DNA of 64,000 bases from Thermodesulfobacterium sp. TA1 (GTDB lineage Bacteria > Desulfobacterota > Thermodesulfobacteria > Thermodesulfobacteriales > Thermodesulfobacteriaceae), in the NCBI RefSeq assembly GCF_008630935.1, contig NZ_CP043908.1:434001-498000 (forward strand), written 5' to 3'. The notes beneath the pieces are model-generated. The model saw only the letters and a list, made by a program, of their open reading frames with translations. It ran no database searches and had not been told where the DNA came from. A program made the translations under genes and the position numbers. Below, piece by piece: positions 26,990 to 45,641 of this stretch (position 1 is the first letter of the stretch; every line of letters starts with the position of its first letter).

Positions 26990-27850
26990 ATTTTTTTCCA
27001 TGAGCCTGTGCTTTTGGAGGAGGTTTTAGGTTTGCTTCAGGTAACCAAAGATAAGGTTTATGTAGATGGAACGGTAGGGATGGGGGGGCATAGCGAAGCC
27101 ATTCTTGAAAGATCCTCTCCTACAGGGGTTTTATATGGTTTTGAATGGAACGAACCGTCTTTTGAGTTGGCTAAAAAAAGATTAAGTAAATACGGAAATA
27201 GGGTAAAACTGTTTAATAAAAGTTTTATTTATATAAAAGATGTTTTAGAAAAAGAAGGGGTTTTGGCAGACGGAATAGTTTTAGACCTTGGCCTTTCTTC
27301 TTTTTTGTTAGAACATTCTGGAAGAGGTTTTTCCTTTCAAAAGGATGAACCCTTAGACATGAGGATGAACTTAGAAACAGAGATTACCGCCGAAAAGATT
27401 TTGAATACCTATGATGTAAAAAGACTTGCGCAAGTGTTTTTAAAAGGTGAAGTCCCAAGCGCTATAAGATTTGCTCAGTTTATCGGTGAAAAAAGAAAAA
27501 GAAAATCCTTTAAAACCACCCAAGATTTGGTAGAGGCGGTCAAAGAGTTTTATAAAACCACCAGAAAAAGTCTTTTGGCTGTTATTTTTCAAAGTTTAAG
27601 GATAGAGGTAAACGAAGAGCTTAAAAACTTAGAAAAGGTTTTAAACGAGGTGCCGGAGGTTTTAAAACCAGGGGGAAGGATAGCGATAATTTCTTTCCAT
27701 TCTTTAGAAGATAGGGTGGTAAAAAACTGGTTTAAATCAGACCCAAGGTTAAAACCGGTGTTAAAAAAACCGGTTGTGCCAACCTTAGAAGAGATAAAAA
27801 GAAATCCAAGGGCACGTAGTGCCAAATTAAGGGTGGGAGAAAGGATATGA
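26990..27850 (+). CDS. rsmH: 16S rRNA m4C1402 methyltransferase RsmH, apparent ATT start
   Basis: RsmH (MraW) methylates N4 of C1402 in 16S rRNA with SAM. The core is clear: DGTVGMGGHSEAIL as motif I, GLSSFLLEHSGRGFSF and FQSLRIEVNEELKNLE. The conserved N-terminus, HEPVLLEEVL, is encoded from 26999. The first standard start in frame is GTG 27008, inside this motif, and a TAA stands at 26984. The only plausible codon before the motif is ATT at 26990, preceded by AGGGGG. The gene therefore seems to start at ATT, giving 286 residues; from GTG it would be 280 and lack HEP. Confidence 0.9.
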   Translation: MFFHEPVLLEEVLGLLQVTKDKVYVDGTVGMGGHSEAILERSSPTGVLYGFEWNEPSFELAKKRLSKYGNRVKLFNKSFIYIKDVLEKEGVLADGIVLDLGLSSFLLEHSGRGFSFQKDEPLDMRMNLETEITAEKILNTYDVKRLAQVFLKGEVPSAIRFAQFIGEKRKRKSFKTTQDLVEAVKEFYKTTRKSLLAVIFQSLRIEVNEELKNLEKVLNEVPEVLKPGGRIAIISFHSLEDRVVKNWFKSDPRLKPVLKKPVVPTLEEIKRNPRARSAKLRVGERI

Positions 27851-28203
27851 TGGCTAACAGAACTTTGGTATATAGGCCCCATTTAGACTCTAAAAGCAAT
27901 AAGACCTCAACCGATCAGAAAAAAAATACAGAAAAAGTTTGTCTTAAAGATTGGATAAAGCAATGGGTGTTTAATGTCTCTTTAATTTTAACCGTAGTTT
28001 TGTTGTTTGTGATGTCAGTCGCCACTGCTTATAAAACTTACGTATGGATTAGGTTAAAAGTAGAAAAACATCAGCTTCTTAGTAAAAATAAAGAATTGAA
28101 AAGCCAGTTTTATAGCTTAACCAGCAGAGAGGTGGTATTAGAAAAGGCTAAAAAACTTGGATTAAGACCACCTCAAGAAGGAGATTACATTTCGCTAAAA
28201 TGA
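27847..28203 (+). CDS. ftsL: Cell division protein FtsL-like
   Basis: A 118-residue bitopic protein with cytoplasmic N-terminus, one membrane helix (about residues 40-60, SLILTVVLLFVMSVATAY), then a leucine-zipper-like coiled coil and the LREVVLEKAKKLGLRPP-like tail (here SREVVLEKAKKLGLRPP) typical of FtsL. It overlaps the rsmH stop in ATGA fashion. FtsL bridges FtsB/Q to FtsW and FtsI. FtsL is poorly conserved, so position between rsmH and the ftsI remnant carries weight. Confidence 0.85.
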   Translation: MMANRTLVYRPHLDSKSNKTSTDQKKNTEKVCLKDWIKQWVFNVSLILTVVLLFVMSVATAYKTYVWIRLKVEKHQLLSKNKELKSQFYSLTSREVVLEKAKKLGLRPPQEGDYISLK

Positions 28204-29174
28204 GTAAAAGAGATTATTATAGTTTATGGGGTTTTTTGTGTGCCTTTTTTCTTTTCTTGATTGTGGTGCTTAATTTTTCTGTAGAAAAGGTTACCGGTAA
28301 ACCTTCTGTCCCTGAGGTAAAACGCGGCTACATCTTTGATAGGAACTTAGAACCTTTGGTGATTACCTTGGAAAATCACAAGGCCTATTATGTAATTAAA
28401 AACGATAATTGGATGGCTAACACCATCCCTCCAGTCGTTAAAAATTATCTACCCTCAACCTTAAACCTACCCAAAAAAGGAATAGTTCTTCTTTCTGAAG
28501 ACCTGACCTTAGATGAGGTAGAAAAACTGGCTAAGGAAGAAAATGTGCTTATAGAAAGGTCTTTTAAGAGAAAAAACCTTGTCCCAGAGATGGACTTTCT
28601 TATTGGAGAGACTTTTAACGGTTATGGAGTATCTGGTTTAGAAAAAAAGTTTGATCATCTCTTGCAAAAGGGAGAACCGTTGGTTTTATCGTTAGACTTG
28701 AAAAAGGAAAGAAAGTTTATAAATGTTAAAAAACAATTAGAAAGTAGGTATCAAGTGGGTTTAGCTGAGATAGACCTTTCTACCGGTGAGGTGTTGGCTT
28801 ACATAGACGATAAAGAAAAACCATTGTTTGAAGAAACCTATCTTTCATCAATTTTTGGCATCCCTAATAAGAATCAAAAAATAAGTTTATGGGATTTGGG
28901 CGGATACTTTTTAACCAATCTTTGTGGAAAGGAGATGTCTGTGGATTTTGTTAAAAAATCGAACAGGATTTGTAATCCTGATTTAAGCAGTTTTCCTAAA
29001 GAAAAAAGAATGTTTTTTATTGATAAAACGGTGGTGAGGGTTTATTTTAAAGACGGAAAGATGTTGATAGCGGCTTTAAAGGAAAAATCTGGTGCTCCCG
29101 AAGGTAACAAGGAAGATAACAAACTTAGTCCAGCTTCTGAAAAATTTGATGCCTGGTTTGCAGAACTGTTATGA
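28200..29174 (+). CDS. FtsI-like division protein lacking the transpeptidase domain
   Basis: It stands in the ftsI place but is only 324 residues; FtsI proteins are about 550-650. One membrane helix (about 10-28) is followed by the pedestal start KRGYIFDRNLEPL, the GYGVSGLEKKFDHLL segment and VGLAEIDLSTGEVLAYIDD, which opens the transpeptidase domain in normal FtsI. The SxxK, SxN and KTG catalytic motifs are not present; after GEVLAYIDD the sequence goes to a short unrelated-looking tail. No frameshifted remainder follows, since murE begins 4 nt before its stop. A non-catalytic scaffold is likely. Maintained ORF and tight overlaps argue against a simple pseudogene. Confidence 0.75.
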   Translation: MSKRDYYSLWGFLCAFFLFLIVVLNFSVEKVTGKPSVPEVKRGYIFDRNLEPLVITLENHKAYYVIKNDNWMANTIPPVVKNYLPSTLNLPKKGIVLLSEDLTLDEVEKLAKEENVLIERSFKRKNLVPEMDFLIGETFNGYGVSGLEKKFDHLLQKGEPLVLSLDLKKERKFINVKKQLESRYQVGLAEIDLSTGEVLAYIDDKEKPLFEETYLSSIFGIPNKNQKISLWDLGGYFLTNLCGKEMSVDFVKKSNRICNPDLSSFPKEKRMFFIDKTVVRVYFKDGKMLIAALKEKSGAPEGNKEDNKLSPASEKFDAWFAELL

Positions 29175-30673
29175 AACCATTAAAAGAGATACTAAAAGAA
29201 GTAGAAATATTAGAGGTTTATCCAAAGGATGAGAGTTGGTTAAATCAACCGGTTTATGGTGTTTCAGACAATTCCAAGGAAGTTTCTGAAGGTTATGTTT
29301 TTATTGCCAGAAAAGGGACTTCTTTTAGAGGAGAAGATTTTATAGATGAGGCGGTTGAAAGAGGGGCTAAAGTTATCGTTAGAGAAACACCTGTAGAAAC
29401 CGAAAAAAAACTGCAAGGGGTTTATCAAATTCGGGTAAAAGACGTTAAAAAAGCCCTTTCTCAGATAGTGCTTAATTTTTTTGACCACCCTGAGAAAAAA
29501 TTAACCCTTATAGGAGTTACCGGAACTAATGGAAAAACATCTGTATGTTATTTTACTAAAACCCTTTTACAAACCTTGGGGATAAAAACCGGTTATGTGG
29601 GAACTATTTTTTATGAAATAGAAAGGAGAATTCCTGCTACAGAGACTACGCCTTCTCTCATAAGATTGGCGGGTCTGATGAAAGAAATGGTAGAAAAAGG
29701 GTTTAAAGCTTGTGTTATGGAAGTTTCTTCTCATGCCTTAGATCAAGGAAGGATAACAGGGCTTAAGTTTGAGGTAGCCGGCTTTACCAATCTTTCAAGA
29801 GATCATTTAGACTACCATAAAACGATGGAAGACTATTATCAGGCCAAAAAAAAGCTTTTTACCGAATATTTAGCCCCAGAGGGAAAGGCAGTTTTGTCCT
29901 TCGAAACAGAATCTGGTAAGAGACTTTATCAAGAATTAAAAGACTTCTTGTCTGAAGATAGGATTTTAGTTGTAAACAACGGGACTTTAAGGGTAGAAAT
30001 TTTAGGTTTAGAAGAGGGCCTTGAGGTAGAGTTAAAGTTTTTAAATACAGGGGAGGCATACAGGGTTAAAACTTCCCTTTTTGGAGAATATCAAGCCAAA
30101 AATTTGGCTACGGTTGTTGGGATTTTGATGGCCTTGGGCTATTCTAAGGAAGAAATATGTTCCAGATTAGAAACCCTTAAAAATCCAGTAGGAAGGTTAG
30201 AGCTGGTTGCAGAGTTTAGAGGGGCTAAAATCTTTGTAGATTATGCGCATACCCCATCTGCTTTAGAACATGTTTTAAAAAGTTTACTTCCTTTAAAAAA
30301 GAATAGGCTTATAGTGGTGTTTGGTTGTGGAGGCAACCGAGATCCTGGCAAAAGGCCTCTTATGGGGGAGGTGGCTGAGAATCTATCTGATTATTTAATC
30401 ATTACTTCTGATAACCCACGATTTGAAGACCCTGAGCGTATAATTCAAGATATCAAACAAGGATTAAAAGGGGTAAAACCCTGTAAGGTTATCCCTGATA
30501 GAAAGGAAGCCATAGAGGCTGCTATAAACCTTTTAGAAAAAGGAGATATATTGGTAATTGCAGGTAAAGGGCATGAGACTTACCAAGAAATTCAAGGAAA
30601 AAGATATCCCTTTTCTGACCAAGACGAGGTTTTAGAGACTATTAAAAGACTAAACAAGGAGTATCTAAAATGA
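29171..30673 (+). CDS. murE: UDP-MurNAc-tripeptide synthetase MurE
   Basis: MurE adds the third amino acid to UDP-MurNAc-L-Ala-D-Glu. The ATP site is GVTGTNGKTS, with EVSSHALDQGR and FTNLSRDHLDYH following. The specificity motif reads DNPR in ITSDNPRFEDP, the form found in meso-diaminopimelate-adding enzymes, so the peptidoglycan is predicted to be DAP type. Length of 500 is normal. It overlaps both neighbours by 4 nt. Confidence 0.95.
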   Translation: MKPLKEILKEVEILEVYPKDESWLNQPVYGVSDNSKEVSEGYVFIARKGTSFRGEDFIDEAVERGAKVIVRETPVETEKKLQGVYQIRVKDVKKALSQIVLNFFDHPEKKLTLIGVTGTNGKTSVCYFTKTLLQTLGIKTGYVGTIFYEIERRIPATETTPSLIRLAGLMKEMVEKGFKACVMEVSSHALDQGRITGLKFEVAGFTNLSRDHLDYHKTMEDYYQAKKKLFTEYLAPEGKAVLSFETESGKRLYQELKDFLSEDRILVVNNGTLRVEILGLEEGLEVELKFLNTGEAYRVKTSLFGEYQAKNLATVVGILMALGYSKEEICSRLETLKNPVGRLELVAEFRGAKIFVDYAHTPSALEHVLKSLLPLKKNRLIVVFGCGGNRDPGKRPLMGEVAENLSDYLIITSDNPRFEDPERIIQDIKQGLKGVKPCKVIPDRKEAIEAAINLLEKGDILVIAGKGHETYQEIQGKRYPFSDQDEVLETIKRLNKEYLK

Positions 30674-33163: not shown

Positions 33164-34558
33164 ATGGAAGTTGAAGGTAAAAGGGTTGTAGTCATCGGTT
33201 TTGGTAGAAGTGGACAGGCGGCTACTAAACTTTTAATAAAAAAAGGTGCTCAAGTTTTGGTTTCTGAGGCTAATCCAAGAGAAAAGTTTAACCCTACTCT
33301 TATCTCTCAGTTTGAAACCCAAGGGGTTGAATTTAAGTTTGGAGGGCATGCTTTAGAAGACTTTTCCCAGGCTGATTTAGTAGTGGTAAGTCCAGGTATT
33401 CCAAGAGAGGTTTATAGAGATTGTTTAAAAAAGGGTATTCCCGTTTTAGGGGAGCTTGAGCTTGCTTGGCAGTTTTTAGAAAAAAAAGACCAGGCTATAG
33501 CTATTACCGGGACCAACGGTAAAACCACCACCACCGCTATGGTTTCAGAACTTTTAAAGCTTTCAGGCTATAAGGTTTTTACCGGAGGTAACTATGGGAT
33601 ACCTCTTTCGGAGTTGATTTACCTTAATACCAAGGTAGATAAATTAGTGCTTGAAGTCTCAAGTTTTCAGCTGGAAACCATCTATACCTTTAGACCTAAG
33701 GTAGGGCTTTTGCTTAACATTACCCCTGACCATTTAGAAAGGTATGAATCTGAAGAAGAATATGCCTATTTTAAATATAGGCTTTTTGAAAATCAGACCT
33801 TAGAAGATTATAGCGTCCTTCCTTTAAAAGAACCTTGGTTTTCAAAGTTTAAAGACTTGGTAAAGGGTAAAGTTTATCGGTTTTCGGAAAAAGAGGAAGA
33901 CGGAGCCCAAGCCTATTTAAAAGATGAGAAGCATTTTGTGTTAAGGATAGAGGGAAAAGAGGAGGTATATTCTTTAGAAGGATTTAGGCTTTTAGGTTTA
34001 CACAATAAACTAAACTATATAGCTGCAAGTTTAGGGGCTCGACTGATAGGAGCTTCTCAAGAAAGTATAGAAAAGTTAGTAACTGAGTTTGAAGGCTTTC
34101 CTCATAGGATTGAATATATCACCTCTGTGGGAGGGGTAAGTTTTATTAACGATTCTAAGGCTACTAATGTAGACGCTACCCTTCAGGCTTTAAAAGGGCT
34201 TGAAGGCAGGTTTATCCTTATCATGGGAGGAAAACATAAGGGAGCTTCGTATAGTCCTTTAATTCCTTATATTAAAGAAAAGGTTAAAGCTTTAGTTTTG
34301 ATGGGGGAAGCAAGGTATGTGATAACTGAAGAATTAGGACAGGTAGTAGAAACTTACCTTGCAGAGACTTTGTCCCAGGCTGTAGCCATAGCTTTAAAAT
34401 TGGCTGAACCAGGAGATTGTGTACTTTTATCCCCTGCTTGCTCTAGTTTTGACCAATTTAAAAACTACGAAGAAAGAGGAGAAGTTTTTAGAGAATTAGT
34501 TTTAAAATACGCCCCCCTCTTCCTTAAAGAGAAAGAAATAAACGAGGTGTACCATTGA
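33164..34558 (+). CDS. murD: UDP-MurNAc-L-alanine:D-glutamate ligase MurD
   Basis: A 464-residue Mur ligase. N-terminal Rossmann site VVVIGFGRSGQAATKLL, ATP site AITGTNGKTTTTAM, LEVSSFQLETI, LNITPDHLERY and SKATNVDATLQAL are all in order. In most bacteria ftsW comes next; here the TTG start of murG overlaps the murD stop, so there is no room for it. Confidence 0.95.
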   Translation: MEVEGKRVVVIGFGRSGQAATKLLIKKGAQVLVSEANPREKFNPTLISQFETQGVEFKFGGHALEDFSQADLVVVSPGIPREVYRDCLKKGIPVLGELELAWQFLEKKDQAIAITGTNGKTTTTAMVSELLKLSGYKVFTGGNYGIPLSELIYLNTKVDKLVLEVSSFQLETIYTFRPKVGLLLNITPDHLERYESEEEYAYFKYRLFENQTLEDYSVLPLKEPWFSKFKDLVKGKVYRFSEKEEDGAQAYLKDEKHFVLRIEGKEEVYSLEGFRLLGLHNKLNYIAASLGARLIGASQESIEKLVTEFEGFPHRIEYITSVGGVSFINDSKATNVDATLQALKGLEGRFILIMGGKHKGASYSPLIPYIKEKVKALVLMGEARYVITEELGQVVETYLAETLSQAVAIALKLAEPGDCVLLSPACSSFDQFKNYEERGEVFRELVLKYAPLFLKEKEINEVYH

Positions 34559-37030: not shown

Positions 37031-37925
37031 AGAATTTTTAGAAAAAAATAAAATTGTTTACTTAGAAAAAGAACCTTTGGCTCCTTATACTACCATCAAG
37101 ATAGGCGGGGCTTGCGATTTTTTTGTTTTTCCGTCAGAAGAAGAGAGTTTGATTAGATTGTTAAAGTTTTTAGAGAGTATAAAATTTCCTTATTATATTT
37201 TAGGTGGAGGAAGCAATCTTTTAGTAGCCGACGAAGGATTTAACGGGATGGTAATAAGTTTTAGAAAGTTAAAAGGGATAGAGTTCGTAAAAGAAGAAAA
37301 AGAAGAAGTAATTCTGAAGGTCAAGGCTGGTGTTGGTGTTAACGAGCTTTTAAGTTTGTGTTTGAAAAGAGGGTTTTCTGGGTTAGAGTTTTTGGCAGGG
37401 GTTCCTGCCACTATAGGTGGAATAGTTAAGATGAACGCAGGGGCTTTTGGAAGGAGTATTTCTCAAATAGTAAAAAAGGTCTATCTTTACCAAGAAGGAG
37501 TATTAACCTATTTTGAGCCCAAAGAAGAAGACTGGAGCTATAGAAGGTTTAAAAAAGAAGGAGTGATTTTAGAAGTAGAGTTTAGACTTAAAAAAACAGA
37601 GAAAGAGGCGGTAAAAAGTAAGGTGTTAGAGTTTTTAAATAAAAGAAGGCTTACCCAACCCCTTTCTAAAAGAACCTTTGGCTCGGTGTTTAAAAACCCT
37701 CCTTGTTATTATGCTGGACAGTTGATAGAGGCCTGTGGTTTAAAAGGTTATAGGGTAGGAGAGGCAGAGATTTCTAAAAAACATGCTAACTTTATCGTAA
37801 ATTTAGGTAAAGCTAAGGCTAAAGAGGTTTTAGAGTTGATGAAAATAGCCCGAAATAAGGTTTGGGAAAAGTTTAGGGTGAGTTTAGAGCCTGAGGTAAA
37901 GTTCTTGGGGATAAAAAATGGGTAG
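37014..37925 (+). CDS. murB: UDP-N-acetylenolpyruvoylglucosamine reductase MurB
   Basis: A 303-residue flavoenzyme that reduces UDP-GlcNAc-enolpyruvate to UDP-MurNAc with NADPH. FAD-binding motifs YTTIKIGGACDFF, LGGGSNLLVADEGF and AGVPATIGGIVKMNAGAFG are present; TFGSVFKNPP holds the Ser general acid and LEPEVKFLG the C-terminal Glu. It is a type II MurB in length. It overlaps murC by 17 nt and ftsQ by 8 nt. Confidence 0.95.
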   Translation: MKEKIKEFLEKNKIVYLEKEPLAPYTTIKIGGACDFFVFPSEEESLIRLLKFLESIKFPYYILGGGSNLLVADEGFNGMVISFRKLKGIEFVKEEKEEVILKVKAGVGVNELLSLCLKRGFSGLEFLAGVPATIGGIVKMNAGAFGRSISQIVKKVYLYQEGVLTYFEPKEEDWSYRRFKKEGVILEVEFRLKKTEKEAVKSKVLEFLNKRRLTQPLSKRTFGSVFKNPPCYYAGQLIEACGLKGYRVGEAEISKKHANFIVNLGKAKAKEVLELMKIARNKVWEKFRVSLEPEVKFLGIKNG

Positions 37926-38646
37926 ATTTTTTAGTTTATTAAAACGTCCTTTTTTTTGGGGAACTATCGGGATATTAGGGTTGTTAGCCTTAGTGTTTTA
38001 TGTGCTTTATTTTACCGACCTTTTTGTTTTGAAAGAGGTTAAGGTTTCTCCTACTAAAAGGGTAAGTAAAGAAGAAATTATTAAACTTGCTGAGCTTAAA
38101 GGAGGGGAGCGCTTTTTTACCATTTCTTTAAAAGACTTGAGGGCAAGGATCCTTTCTAATGAAAACATAGAGGAAGTAACGATTGTTCGGCGTTTACCTG
38201 GTACTTTAGAGTTTATTATTAAGGAAAGAGAACCATTGGCTATTTTAATCAAAAATAATAAAGGGTATTTAGTAGACAAAAAAGGCGTTATTATGGAGGG
38301 GATATTACCGGAAGATTACTTCTTTTATCCGGTGTTAGAAATTAAAAATGAGATGTTAAAAGATAAACTTTTTGAGTTTCTTTATTGGTTAAAAAACAAT
38401 AAAAATTATTTGCCTGTTTACGAAAACATTTCTAAAATTGAATTAGAAGACAGTAAAATGATTATACTTACTAAAAATAAGATAAAAATCTATTTACCTT
38501 TGATTGCTGAAAAAGATTGGGTTTACTTTTATAAAAATTTAGACAAAATAATGGCATATCTGTATGAAAAAGGGCAGACAGAAAAGATAGAGTTGATTAG
38601 ATTAGACTACCCTGTAGGACAAGCTTTAATTAAATTTAGGGAGTGA
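37918..38646 (+). CDS. ftsQ: Cell division protein FtsQ
   Basis: A 242-residue bitopic protein: one membrane helix at about 13-35 (GTIGILGLLALVFYVLYF), a POTRA domain beginning LKEVKVSPTKRVSKEEIIKL and containing ENIEEVTIVRRLPGTLEFII, then the FtsQ beta domain. FtsQ with FtsB and FtsL passes the divisome activation signal to FtsW and FtsI. It is kept although those two partners are missing or degenerate in this cluster. Confidence 0.9.
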   Translation: MGRFFSLLKRPFFWGTIGILGLLALVFYVLYFTDLFVLKEVKVSPTKRVSKEEIIKLAELKGGERFFTISLKDLRARILSNENIEEVTIVRRLPGTLEFIIKEREPLAILIKNNKGYLVDKKGVIMEGILPEDYFFYPVLEIKNEMLKDKLFEFLYWLKNNKNYLPVYENISKIELEDSKMIILTKNKIKIYLPLIAEKDWVYFYKNLDKIMAYLYEKGQTEKIELIRLDYPVGQALIKFRE

Positions 38647-38650
38647 TAAG

Positions 38651-39895
38651 ATGGGCAAGGAAGTAGGGATTTTGGTGGTAGATGTAGGGACTACCAAGGT
38701 ATGTGCTTTGATAGGAGAAGAAAGAGAAGGAGAACTTTGGGTTACTGGAATCGGTATAGCACCTTCTCAAGGTTTAAAAAAGGGTATGGTTTTAAACATT
38801 GATGAAGCCACCCAGAGTATTAAGAATGCTATAGAAAAGGCTTTAACACAGGCTAAAGTAGAAATAGGAAGTGTATATGTGAGTATAGCAGGTGCTCACA
38901 TTAAAACCATTCCAGGAATGGGAGTTGTAGCTTTAAAGCAAAAGTGTGTAACAGAAGAGGATGTAGAAGAGGTGCTCCGTTCAGCTCAAAATTTAAACCT
39001 ACCCCCTGAGACTGAAATCCTACATGTAATACCGCAAGAGTTTATCTTAGACCAACAAGGGGGTATTTTACAGCCTGTAGGAATGACAGGGGTAAGGTTG
39101 GAAGCTCATGTAAAACTTATCGTTTGTAATCGTTCTTCTTTGCAGAACTTGCTTAGATGTTTTGAGAACCTTAACTTAGGGGTTGATGGGGTTATCTTTC
39201 AGGGGCTTGCTTCAGCCGAGGCGGTTTTAACCCCAGAAGAAAAAGAATTAGGGGTAGTGCTTTTGGATTTTGGAGGAGGCACTACGGATGTGGTCATTTA
39301 CTGGGATAACGTATTAAGAGATGTTTTTTCTATTCAGGTAGGAGGAGAGCATCTAACTAACGACTTGGCGGTTGGGCTTAGGACTTCAAGAAGAGAAGCA
39401 GAAAAACTTAAAATAGAAAAAGGGGTATGTTTAAGGGAACTGGTGGAAGAGGACGAAATTATAGAAGTAGCAGGTATCGGTAATCGTCCTCCGAGAAAGG
39501 TAAATAAGAAATTTTTGGCAGAGATTTTAGAACCAAGAGTCAAAGAGCTTTTTGAGTTGATTGAGAGAGAACTTCGGAAAGAGGTTGCAAGCCAGTTTAG
39601 AGGTTTTGATCTAAAGTCTAAGATAGGAAGTGGAATAGTAATTACCGGTGGTTCTTCTCTTATTCCTGGTTTAGTTTATTTGGCAGACCAGATGTTTGAC
39701 CTCCCAGCAAGGATAGGTTATCCTATAAGACTTGCAGGACTTACAGAGGAAGTTTCTCATCCCCAATTTTCTACTGCAGTAGGTATGCTTCTTTATGCCT
39801 ATAATTATGGAGAAAAAACGGAACCAACAGAAAAGGAAGAAGGATTTTTAGAAAAATTAAAAAAAATATACAAAAAATTTTTAAAAGGAGGATAA
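38651..39895 (+). CDS. ftsA: Cell division protein FtsA
   Basis: A 414-residue actin-like protein that tethers FtsZ to the membrane. Phosphate-binding loops ILVVDVGTTKVCALIGE and VVLLDFGGGTTDVVIY, the SHS2 1C region GVYVSIAGAHI-like (here SVYVSIAGAHIKTIPG) and VITGGSSLIPGL are visible. The C-terminus, EGFLEKLKKIYKKFLKGG, is the amphipathic membrane-targeting helix. It lies 4 nt after ftsQ and 1 nt before ftsZ. Confidence 0.96.
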   Translation: MGKEVGILVVDVGTTKVCALIGEEREGELWVTGIGIAPSQGLKKGMVLNIDEATQSIKNAIEKALTQAKVEIGSVYVSIAGAHIKTIPGMGVVALKQKCVTEEDVEEVLRSAQNLNLPPETEILHVIPQEFILDQQGGILQPVGMTGVRLEAHVKLIVCNRSSLQNLLRCFENLNLGVDGVIFQGLASAEAVLTPEEKELGVVLLDFGGGTTDVVIYWDNVLRDVFSIQVGGEHLTNDLAVGLRTSRREAEKLKIEKGVCLRELVEEDEIIEVAGIGNRPPRKVNKKFLAEILEPRVKELFELIERELRKEVASQFRGFDLKSKIGSGIVITGGSSLIPGLVYLADQMFDLPARIGYPIRLAGLTEEVSHPQFSTAVGMLLYAYNYGEKTEPTEKEEGFLEKLKKIYKKFLKGG

Positions 39896-39896
39896 C

Positions 39897-41024
39897 ATGG
39901 GTATCTCTTTTGAGCTCTTAGATGAAGAAGTGAAGGTTCAACCTAACATTAAGGTAGTGGGAGTAGGTGGAGCTGGTGGCAATGCTATCGCTAACATGAT
40001 TAGAAATAAACTTGTAGGGGTAGAATTTGTAGTGGCTAACACAGACTACAGGGTCCTTGAATTAAACCCAGCCCCGATTAAAATTCAATTGGGGAAAAAA
40101 CTTACTAAAGGACTGGGAGCAGGTGGAAAGCCAGAAGTAGGTAGACAAGCAGCCGAGGAGAGCGAAAAAGAGATAAGAGATGTGTTAAAAGATGCAGACA
40201 TGGTTTTTATAGCTGCAGGTATGGGAGGAGGTACAGGAACCGGTGCAGCTCCCGTGATAGCCAACATTTGTAAAGACCTTGGAATCCTAACAGTAGCGGT
40301 AGTAACCAAACCTTTCACTTTTGAAGGAAGACACAGGATAAAATTGGCTGAACAAGGCTTAGAAGAACTCTCCAAGTTTGTAGATACCTTGATTACTATT
40401 CCAAACGACCGTTTACTTACCCTTGGGTCTCCACAAGAAAGATTGTCGGATATGTTTAAAAAAGCAGACGATGTATTATATTATGCTGTAAGAGGTATTT
40501 CAGACCTTATTCTTTCTCCAGGTTATATCAACCTGGACTTTGCAGACGTTAAGGCAGTGATGAGTGAAAGTGGAGGTATGGCTTTGATGGGAATGGGAGA
40601 GGCTGTAGGAGATTCTAGGGCAGAAATCGCTACTCAGATGGCAGTTTATAGTCCTCTTTTAGATGACCTTACCCTTTCAGGTGCTAAAGGTGTATTACTT
40701 AATATAAGCGGACATTCTGAAACTTTGACTATTCAAGAAACTCAATTTATAACCACCATGATAGCCAAAGAGCTTCATCCAGACGCTAAAGTATATTGGG
40801 GTGTAGTTTTTGATGAATCCTTAGGAGATGCTTTAAGGGTTACGGTGATTGCTACAGGCCTTGAATCATCCAAAAAAGAAGAAAAAAACGGCAAAGTAGT
40901 AACCATAGAAGAGGGATTAAGAAGGAGAGAAGGCAAAGAAAAGTTTAATAAGATAGAGGAATATTCTTTAGAAGAGGAAGAAGTACTTGATATACCTACC
41001 TTTCTTAGAAGAAACGCAGATTAA
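39897..41024 (+). CDS. ftsZ: Cell division GTPase FtsZ
   Basis: A 375-residue tubulin homologue that forms the division ring. VVGVGGAGGNAIANMI opens the GTPase domain, GMGGGTGTGAAPVIA is the tubulin signature, FKKADDVLYYAVRGISDLI holds the T7-region context. A short linker leads to the C-terminal peptide VLDIPTFLRR, which binds FtsA and other partners. Start ATG at 39897 follows AAAAGGAGGATAAC. It is the last gene of the dcw operon. Confidence 0.98.
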   Translation: MGISFELLDEEVKVQPNIKVVGVGGAGGNAIANMIRNKLVGVEFVVANTDYRVLELNPAPIKIQLGKKLTKGLGAGGKPEVGRQAAEESEKEIRDVLKDADMVFIAAGMGGGTGTGAAPVIANICKDLGILTVAVVTKPFTFEGRHRIKLAEQGLEELSKFVDTLITIPNDRLLTLGSPQERLSDMFKKADDVLYYAVRGISDLILSPGYINLDFADVKAVMSESGGMALMGMGEAVGDSRAEIATQMAVYSPLLDDLTLSGAKGVLLNISGHSETLTIQETQFITTMIAKELHPDAKVYWGVVFDESLGDALRVTVIATGLESSKKEEKNGKVVTIEEGLRRREGKEKFNKIEEYSLEEEEVLDIPTFLRRNAD

Positions 41025-44441: not shown

Positions 44442-45641
44442 ATGACCCATTACATCGGTGTTGACATTTCTAAAGATAACTTCCACTTCTGCATCCTTAA
44501 CCATGAAGCTAAAACCCTCTCCTCCGGCAAACTCTCTATGTCTCTTCAAGGCTTCTCTGATTTCTTTAACCTTCTCAAAACCCTCTCTGACCCTATCGTT
44601 GTTATGGAATCCTCTGGTAGGTTCCACATCCCCCTTTACTGCTTCCTCGTTGAAAAAGATATCCAAACCTTCATCCTTAACCCTAAAATCGTCCACAGAT
44701 TCTTTGAATTTATCTCCGCTAACAACCCCTCTAAATACGACACAAAAGATGCCAAAATCCTTGCACTCTTCGCTCTTAATAACCCTGAATTCCTTAAATC
44801 CTATCCTGAAAACTCTGAACTCCGTAGTGCTTCTCGTCTTATCCAAAAACTTAAACATGAACTTGCTGAAGCTAAAACTCAAATCAAATACGCCCTCACT
44901 GTTCTTTTCCCAGAAGCTGAAAAGCACTTTAATATTTACTCCCACTCCTTCCTTAACATACTCCTTAAATTCCCCTCTGCTAAAACCCTTAAAAAAGCTA
45001 AACCAAATGAAATTTCCGAAATTATTAAATCCTCTGTTCCTAAAGGTAAAACCCCTTCCTTTTCTCCCGATGAAGTCATAAACCTTGCTAAAAACTCTAT
45101 CGGGGTTGACAATCCTTATCTCTCTCAAACTCTTATCATCTACATCGAAAAACTCTTTTTCCTTGAGCCAAGAATAAAAAAGCTTGAAGAGATGCTTGTA
45201 GAGAAAATGGATGAAGACCAGCAAGAACAAATTAAGCTCATTTCCTCTATAAAAGGTATTTCCTCTAAACTTGCAAGTCTCTTTTTGGCTGAAATCAGAG
45301 ACGTAAAAAGATTTTCTAATGCCAAAAAGCTCATAAAGTTTGCGGGCACAGACCCAGTAACAAAACAATCTGGTAAGTATAAAGCTAAGATGAGCATATC
45401 TAAGCAAGGGTCGAGCTTTCTCAGAAATGTTCTTTTCCAGATGGCGGTAGGTGTAGTAAAATGGAATTTTTACTTCAGATCCTATTTTATACGTAAGAAG
45501 AAAAACTTTGGCAGTTATAAGAAAGCTATGATAGCAGTTGTAAACAAACTTATAAGAGTTATCTATGCAATTTGTAGAAAAAAAACTTTCTTTAATCCTG
45601 CTTTTTCTAAGTTCCCTGTTCTGGAGGTCTCTCATGTTTAA
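44442..45641 (+). CDS. IS110-family transposase (bridge recombinase)
   Basis: A 399-residue DEDD transposase. The RuvC-like domain begins YIGVDISKDNFHF (Asp8), has VVMESSGRF (Glu56) and KYDTKDAKILALFA (Asp100, Asp103). A coiled-coil middle leads to the C-terminal Tnp domain with ISSIKGISSKLASLFLAEI, the conserved Ser in KQSGKYK (about residue 310) and SISKQGSSFLRNVLFQMA. All catalytic positions are present, so it may be active. AAAAAGGAGGT precedes the ATG. The first two thirds use a C-rich, G-poor coding strand; from about 45160 the composition resembles the host more, which suggests a chimeric or recently amelioated gene. Confidence 0.95.
   Translation: MTHYIGVDISKDNFHFCILNHEAKTLSSGKLSMSLQGFSDFFNLLKTLSDPIVVMESSGRFHIPLYCFLVEKDIQTFILNPKIVHRFFEFISANNPSKYDTKDAKILALFALNNPEFLKSYPENSELRSASRLIQKLKHELAEAKTQIKYALTVLFPEAEKHFNIYSHSFLNILLKFPSAKTLKKAKPNEISEIIKSSVPKGKTPSFSPDEVINLAKNSIGVDNPYLSQTLIIYIEKLFFLEPRIKKLEEMLVEKMDEDQQEQIKLISSIKGISSKLASLFLAEIRDVKRFSNAKKLIKFAGTDPVTKQSGKYKAKMSISKQGSSFLRNVLFQMAVGVVKWNFYFRSYFIRKKKNFGSYKKAMIAVVNKLIRVIYAICRKKTFFNPAFSKFPVLEVSHV

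Follow-up and report, generated by a model that had tools for sequence, protein, structure and literature searches.

In the dcw cluster of Thermodesulfobacterium sp. TA1, the place between ftsL and murE is taken by a gene whose product bears none of the motifs of a penicillin-binding transpeptidase. Across the phylum, the usual layout is FtsI by murE, with FtsW some 5 kb on. Is the TA1 gene still an ftsI and, if so, which enzyme builds the septal wall? The features that bear on the first question are the following, in coordinates of the window, i.e., the whole stretch of 64,000 nucleotides that was analyzed.

27847..28203, forward strand: ftsL (118 residues), its 3' end overlapping the dead ftsI; assigned by position and weak NCBIfam FtsL matches (TIGR02209 at 5.5e-5, below the cut-off)
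28200..29174, forward strand: dead ftsI, encoding a pseudo-transpeptidase (324 residues, ATG start); assigned by slot, orthologues, alignment, AlphaFold model, and fold match
28206..28280, forward strand: membrane helix of dead FtsI (residues 3-27), a helix in the AlphaFold2 model; the LQV-type motif of intact FtsI is missing after it
28320..28694, forward strand: pedestal (dimerisation domain; about residues 41-165, limits approximate) with RGxIxDR and GLEKxFD; assigned by conserved columns, profile match to FtsI chains, and fold
28695..29171, forward strand: transpeptidase-domain remnant (residues 166-324) without the active-site part; assigned by AlphaFold model and alignment with full FtsI
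29171..30673, forward strand: murE, with a 4-base overlap with the dead ftsI

As for the gene itself, the original prediction holds. It had described a gene between ftsL and murE with a membrane anchor and a pedestal motif, and the open reading frame indeed overlaps the stop of ftsL and the start of murE (29171) by 4 bases each, carries the sequence KRGYIFDR, and begins with a helix in the AlphaFold2 model. Its 324 residues were also said to lack SxxK, SxN, and KTG. None of the three is found in the protein sequence, and the SxxK-SxN and KTG stretches are missing when it is aligned with two full-length FtsI from the same phylum. Pfam and NCBIfam profiles, including PF00905 and PF03717, return zero matches to the protein up to E = 1.

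The fold was predicted by AlphaFold as a single chain, with the window protein and 14 orthologues as input, giving a model with a pLDDT of 83.6. Its top structural matches are FtsI/PBP3 proteins. It aligns with Pseudomonas aeruginosa PBP3 over 278 of 497 residues (Z 18.4, rmsd 6.3) and with the FtsI of the FtsWIQBL complex 8bh1 over 308 residues (Z 18.1, rmsd 12.7), and the best Foldseek matches are again PBP3 (E 4.5e-11). The model spans the pedestal and the sheet of PBP3. Of the transpeptidase domain, it keeps the first helix, a five-stranded core (residues 184-192, 197-202, 269-274, 277-284, and 287-295), and the last helix. The model thus shows a predicted FtsI fold from which the half of this domain that holds the active site has gone. 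Taken with the dcw slot, the N-terminal membrane helix, and the RGxIxDR pedestal, which are hallmarks of FtsI, this indicates at the level of sequence and prediction that the window gene is a true ftsI descendant in which transpeptidase catalysis has been lost.

Every genome of the genus (14 of 14) has an orthologue, and so do eight genomes from another two genera of the family; the frames span 284-351 residues. Contig ends cut the copies of G011 (L066) and G025 (L087), and the shortest frame (284 residues) is one cut in this way. Wherever the interval was read, the orthologues sit between ftsL and murE, the closest named ones being those of T. hveragerdense and T. thermophilum (73% identity). 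Within the genus, the dN/dS of dead ftsI is 0.09-0.22, about that of ftsL, rsmH, and murE. Both halves of the protein are constrained, the C-terminal one being somewhat more relaxed, and the invariant columns of the ortholog alignment fall outside the active site. The impression that the frame is maintained, first gained from the overlaps with both neighbors, is thus strengthened. Since the orthologues occupy the same slot, dN/dS is low, and the fold matches FtsI, this is not a chance open reading frame.

Across the order, whose members are thermophilic sulfate reducers, the slot protein has about 290-340 residues in genera g1, g2, and g6; 379-392 in g4 and g5, which have PASTA at the C-terminus; 449-461 with PASTA in family f3; and 522 with PASTA in family f2. 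The ftsL-murE intervals read cover the order's three families, and in none of them does the slot protein show all three motifs at their positions. In g3, represented by one genome that is 64% complete, there is no murE match and the slot was left unread; this genome has one PBP2-type PF00905 match. Alignment of relatives, which the original prediction had proposed, finds a shortened, motif-less protein throughout the intervals read, and the full-length orthologues that it had named as counterevidence number zero in them. A recent deletion is therefore rejected, the motif-less state being order-wide.

The second question concerns the rest of the septal machinery, for which the relevant features of the window are as follows.

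34555..34558, forward strand: murD-murG junction, a 4-base overlap with no ftsW between the genes
37918..38646, forward strand: ftsQ (242 residues, POTRA domain)
38651..39895, forward strand: ftsA
39897..41024, forward strand: ftsZ

Further along, a 399-residue open reading frame (44442-45641, forward strand) has, by eye, the look of an IS110-type transposase.

No SEDS match is found within the 64-kb window at E up to 1. In each of the order's 41 genomes, PF01098 identifies a single SEDS gene (that of G012 is split into two pieces, on contig ends). It adjoins PBP2 wherever both were seen and is assigned to RodA, which leaves no FtsW. This is in line with one phrase in a dcw survey stating that ftsW was lost from the Thermodesulfobacteria dcw cluster (PMC8871954). 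Since FtsW is also absent, it is the entire septal SEDS-bPBP synthase that has been lost, beyond the crosslinking domain alone, a point that the original prediction had overlooked.

The remaining wall enzymes are few. The PF00905 matches across the order's 41 genomes are confined to one PBP2-type protein, one class A PBP, DacA-like proteins, and slot-protein relics (f2 and f3). Apart from the slot, the penicillin-binding transpeptidases of the closed TA1 genome are PBP2, whose gene adjoins rodA, a single class A PBP, and a DacA-like carboxypeptidase, so that the search for other class B PBPs by PF00905 yields PBP2 only. This PBP2 is of the MrdA type (TIGR03423, 628.9 bits, over the cut-off) with motifs STFK, SCD, and KTGT, and its locus reads mreC-mreD-pbp2-rodA (MreC is matched, mreD is placed by position and hydrophobicity only). 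The SEDS protein of TA1 is closer to RodA than to FtsW, yet below both cut-offs. The class A PBP of TA1 combines a GT51 with a TP domain. Septal crosslinking by another penicillin-binding protein, as originally proposed, is well supported by this inventory together with the lack of a full FtsI in the slots read. L,D-transpeptidases were rejected as a specific replacement because, judged within the order, one to three YkuD genes per genome are not distinctive.

One additional GT51 protein of about 280-330 residues is present in many genomes of the order. A second GT51 gene at G000:C1:948093-948587 (reverse strand; about 330 residues), with no TP match, is probably a monofunctional glycosyltransferase. 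Class A PBPs are present in most genomes of the order, but one MAG of TA1's own genus, g1 (G008, estimated at 99% completeness, locus L077), has no GT51 and no class A PF00905 match. This is a single MAG in which an assembly gap is possible; the gene flanking PBP1 elsewhere is not conserved in it. If the absence is confirmed, G008 would offer a natural way of telling the two candidates for septal synthase apart.

The joint loss of catalysis and FtsW extends beyond the order. We surveyed 78 genomes of the phylum, some of them MAGs. Dead FtsI goes without FtsW in 15 of 15 genomes and intact FtsI with FtsW in 61 of 61, with zero exceptions. This count sets aside G087 (contig end) and G101, and scores as intact the FtsI of G050, which is split in two overlapping frames with its motifs kept. 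The corresponding Fisher value (p 3.5e-16) ignores relatedness and is therefore not a probability. Outside the order, dead slot proteins are found in families f17, f20, f27, f31, f54, and f55, whose genomes with dead FtsI have one SEDS gene each, beside PBP2 (in two frames in G054). On a tree of RsmH, MurE, MurF, MraY, and MurD, the dead state amounts to four changes, but the AU test does not reject a single origin (p 0.212). We therefore claim only that these sequences suggest between one and four losses in the phylum; four independent losses as a firm claim was dropped, a single origin being compatible with the data.

Other arrangements were seen in the same survey. Five genomes (G058, G059, G062, G103, and G105) display the reverse state, with the dcw FtsW as sole SEDS protein and an intact FtsI, RodA appearing to be lost. 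In G101 (f49; L184), only RodA-PBP2 was found, with no FtsW, no FtsI, and, at 1e-40, no murE match. Slot proteins of 248-329 residues at L154, L174 (f27), and L175 (f54) have no RGxIxD and a PASTA-like C-terminus; those of f27 and f54 seem to have eroded along a path other than that of Thermodesulfobacterium. At L193 and L194 (f17), and several other loci, murE lies within a frame of about 950-1140 residues, which suggests a murE-murF fusion.

Which parts of dead FtsI have been kept? An LQV/LQI-type motif directly follows the membrane helix in 15 of 15 intact FtsI. It is absent from the 17 dead FtsI, the lone match, in L179, being a chance one inside a hydrophobic stretch. The linker between membrane helix and pedestal has 13 residues in the window protein and 12-16 in g1, g2, and g6, versus 27-32 in intact FtsI; the dead FtsI of f17, f20, and f55 show no such shortening. 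In P. aeruginosa, ECL4 of FtsW touches this linker and the FtsI membrane helix touches TM8/9 of FtsW (PMC7614612). FtsL binds the pedestal and the TP domain of FtsI, and in an E. coli model the C-termini of FtsQ, FtsB, FtsL, and FtsI share one sheet (PMC7614612, PMC10390529). In Thermodesulfobacterium, the retained pedestal and sheet, the missing motif, and the shortened linker, read against these contacts, suggest that the FtsL-facing parts are kept and the FtsW-facing part is gone. PASTA has been lost in Thermodesulfobacterium and Caldimicrobium, and f27 and f54 have lost the pedestal and keep PASTA. Since lineages retain different pieces, no single kept interface accounts for all of them.

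Together, these findings are probably best explained by loss of the FtsW-FtsI synthase, with FtsI kept as a scaffold for FtsL/FtsQ and the septal wall made by RodA-PBP2 and/or the class A PBP. It is most likely that dead FtsI remains part of the divisome in a structural role, alongside FtsL and FtsQ, which fits its retained pedestal and sheet. By means of the membrane helix and pedestal/sheet, it would still bind FtsL and, by way of FtsL, also FtsB and FtsQ, and would hold or position the FtsL-FtsB-FtsQ complex at the Z ring. Dead FtsI would no longer engage a SEDS glycosyltransferase, and septal wall synthesis would fall to an enzyme whose gene is not part of the dcw cluster. That a class B PBP can have noncatalytic roles in division follows from S. 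aureus, where septal plates fail to form once PBP1, or just its PASTA domains, is lost, a defect distinct from that of lost TP activity (PMC9426605), and laboratory mutants indicate that a noncatalytic bPBP can support septation (PMC12713402). As to the synthase, RodA-PBP2 serving both elongation and division is our favored candidate, at slightly under even odds, because it is the sole SEDS-bPBP pair left and because the one MAG G008, with neither GT51 nor class A PBP found, leaves only RodA-PBP2. The two enzymes may also share septal work.

The class A PBP ranks below RodA-PBP2 as main septal synthase, a plausible but second choice. In the corresponding scenario, to which we give about one chance in three, it drives septation as in Clostridioides difficile (PMC10693644) and dead FtsI recruits it to FtsQLB. 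E. coli FtsI does bind PBP1b (PMC12539705), and TA1 has a suitable bifunctional enzyme, but the absence of both class A signatures from G008 argues against this scenario, as does the fact that FtsQLB is dispensable for growth in C. difficile (PMC12539705) while ftsL, ftsQ, and dead ftsI are kept here. Dead FtsI could instead be an allosteric activator, acting at the septum on RodA rather than FtsW, as dead bPBPs can. The catalysis of B. subtilis PBP2B is dispensable, the protein being thought to activate FtsW (PMC12713402), and the bPBP pedestal activates SEDS proteins (PMC8078798). We consider this unlikely, since the cognate SEDS protein is gone, the LQV-type motif is lost, and in the family the linker is short as well.

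Slow pseudogene decay, in which a functionless protein persists through the operon overlaps, would account for lengths and retained domains that differ between families. It is very improbable given the open frame, the in-frame conservation with low dN/dS in both halves, and invariant columns that lie outside the active site. The chance that an assembly or annotation error, or a catalytic domain split off elsewhere, underlies the finding is negligible. Error or frameshift was rejected because orthologues of similar length and the same state occur in independent genomes, including closed ones, and relocation because the closed TA1 genome has no extra PF00905 domain.

Several known systems come close. 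Dead FtsI resembles FtsI/PBP3 in slot, membrane helix, RGxIxDR pedestal, and pedestal and TP-sheet fold; it differs in having no SxxK, SxN, or KTG, active-site half, LQV-type motif, FtsW partner, or Pfam match. Almost all walled bacteria are considered to have FtsW-FtsI, Clostridia being the exception on record (PMC10693644). C. difficile, which uses class A PBP1, likewise divides without a canonical FtsW-FtsI synthase; however, it keeps catalytic dcw enzymes for sporulation, whereas the present lineage, outside the Firmicutes, has a dead enzyme in the slot and has lost the SEDS gene. A noncatalytic bPBP also supports septation, with other transpeptidases crosslinking, in B. subtilis PBP2B and C. 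difficile SpoVD mutants devoid of catalysis, but these are laboratory mutants with their SEDS partner present, in contrast to a natural, order-fixed state in which that partner is absent. The dcw survey (PMC8871954) concerns the same taxon and the same missing ftsW, and its phrase is silent on the loss of FtsI catalysis and on the phylum-wide coupling. In the open-access papers searched, we found nothing on a degenerate or noncatalytic FtsI such as this one.

It is conceivable, though we hold it with less than even confidence, that a large group of bacteria divides without a division-specific synthase, FtsW-FtsI having been dismantled, possibly repeatedly, with FtsI left as an FtsQLB scaffold and RodA-PBP2 serving both modes. 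Our findings add a Gram-negative order, together with other families of its phylum, in which FtsI has a natural separation-of-function form, and these dead forms show what FtsI can retain when both catalysis and the SEDS partner are gone. They make testable the idea that one SEDS-bPBP pair runs both growth modes, and they predict that FtsI-directed beta-lactams would have no divisome target in these organisms.
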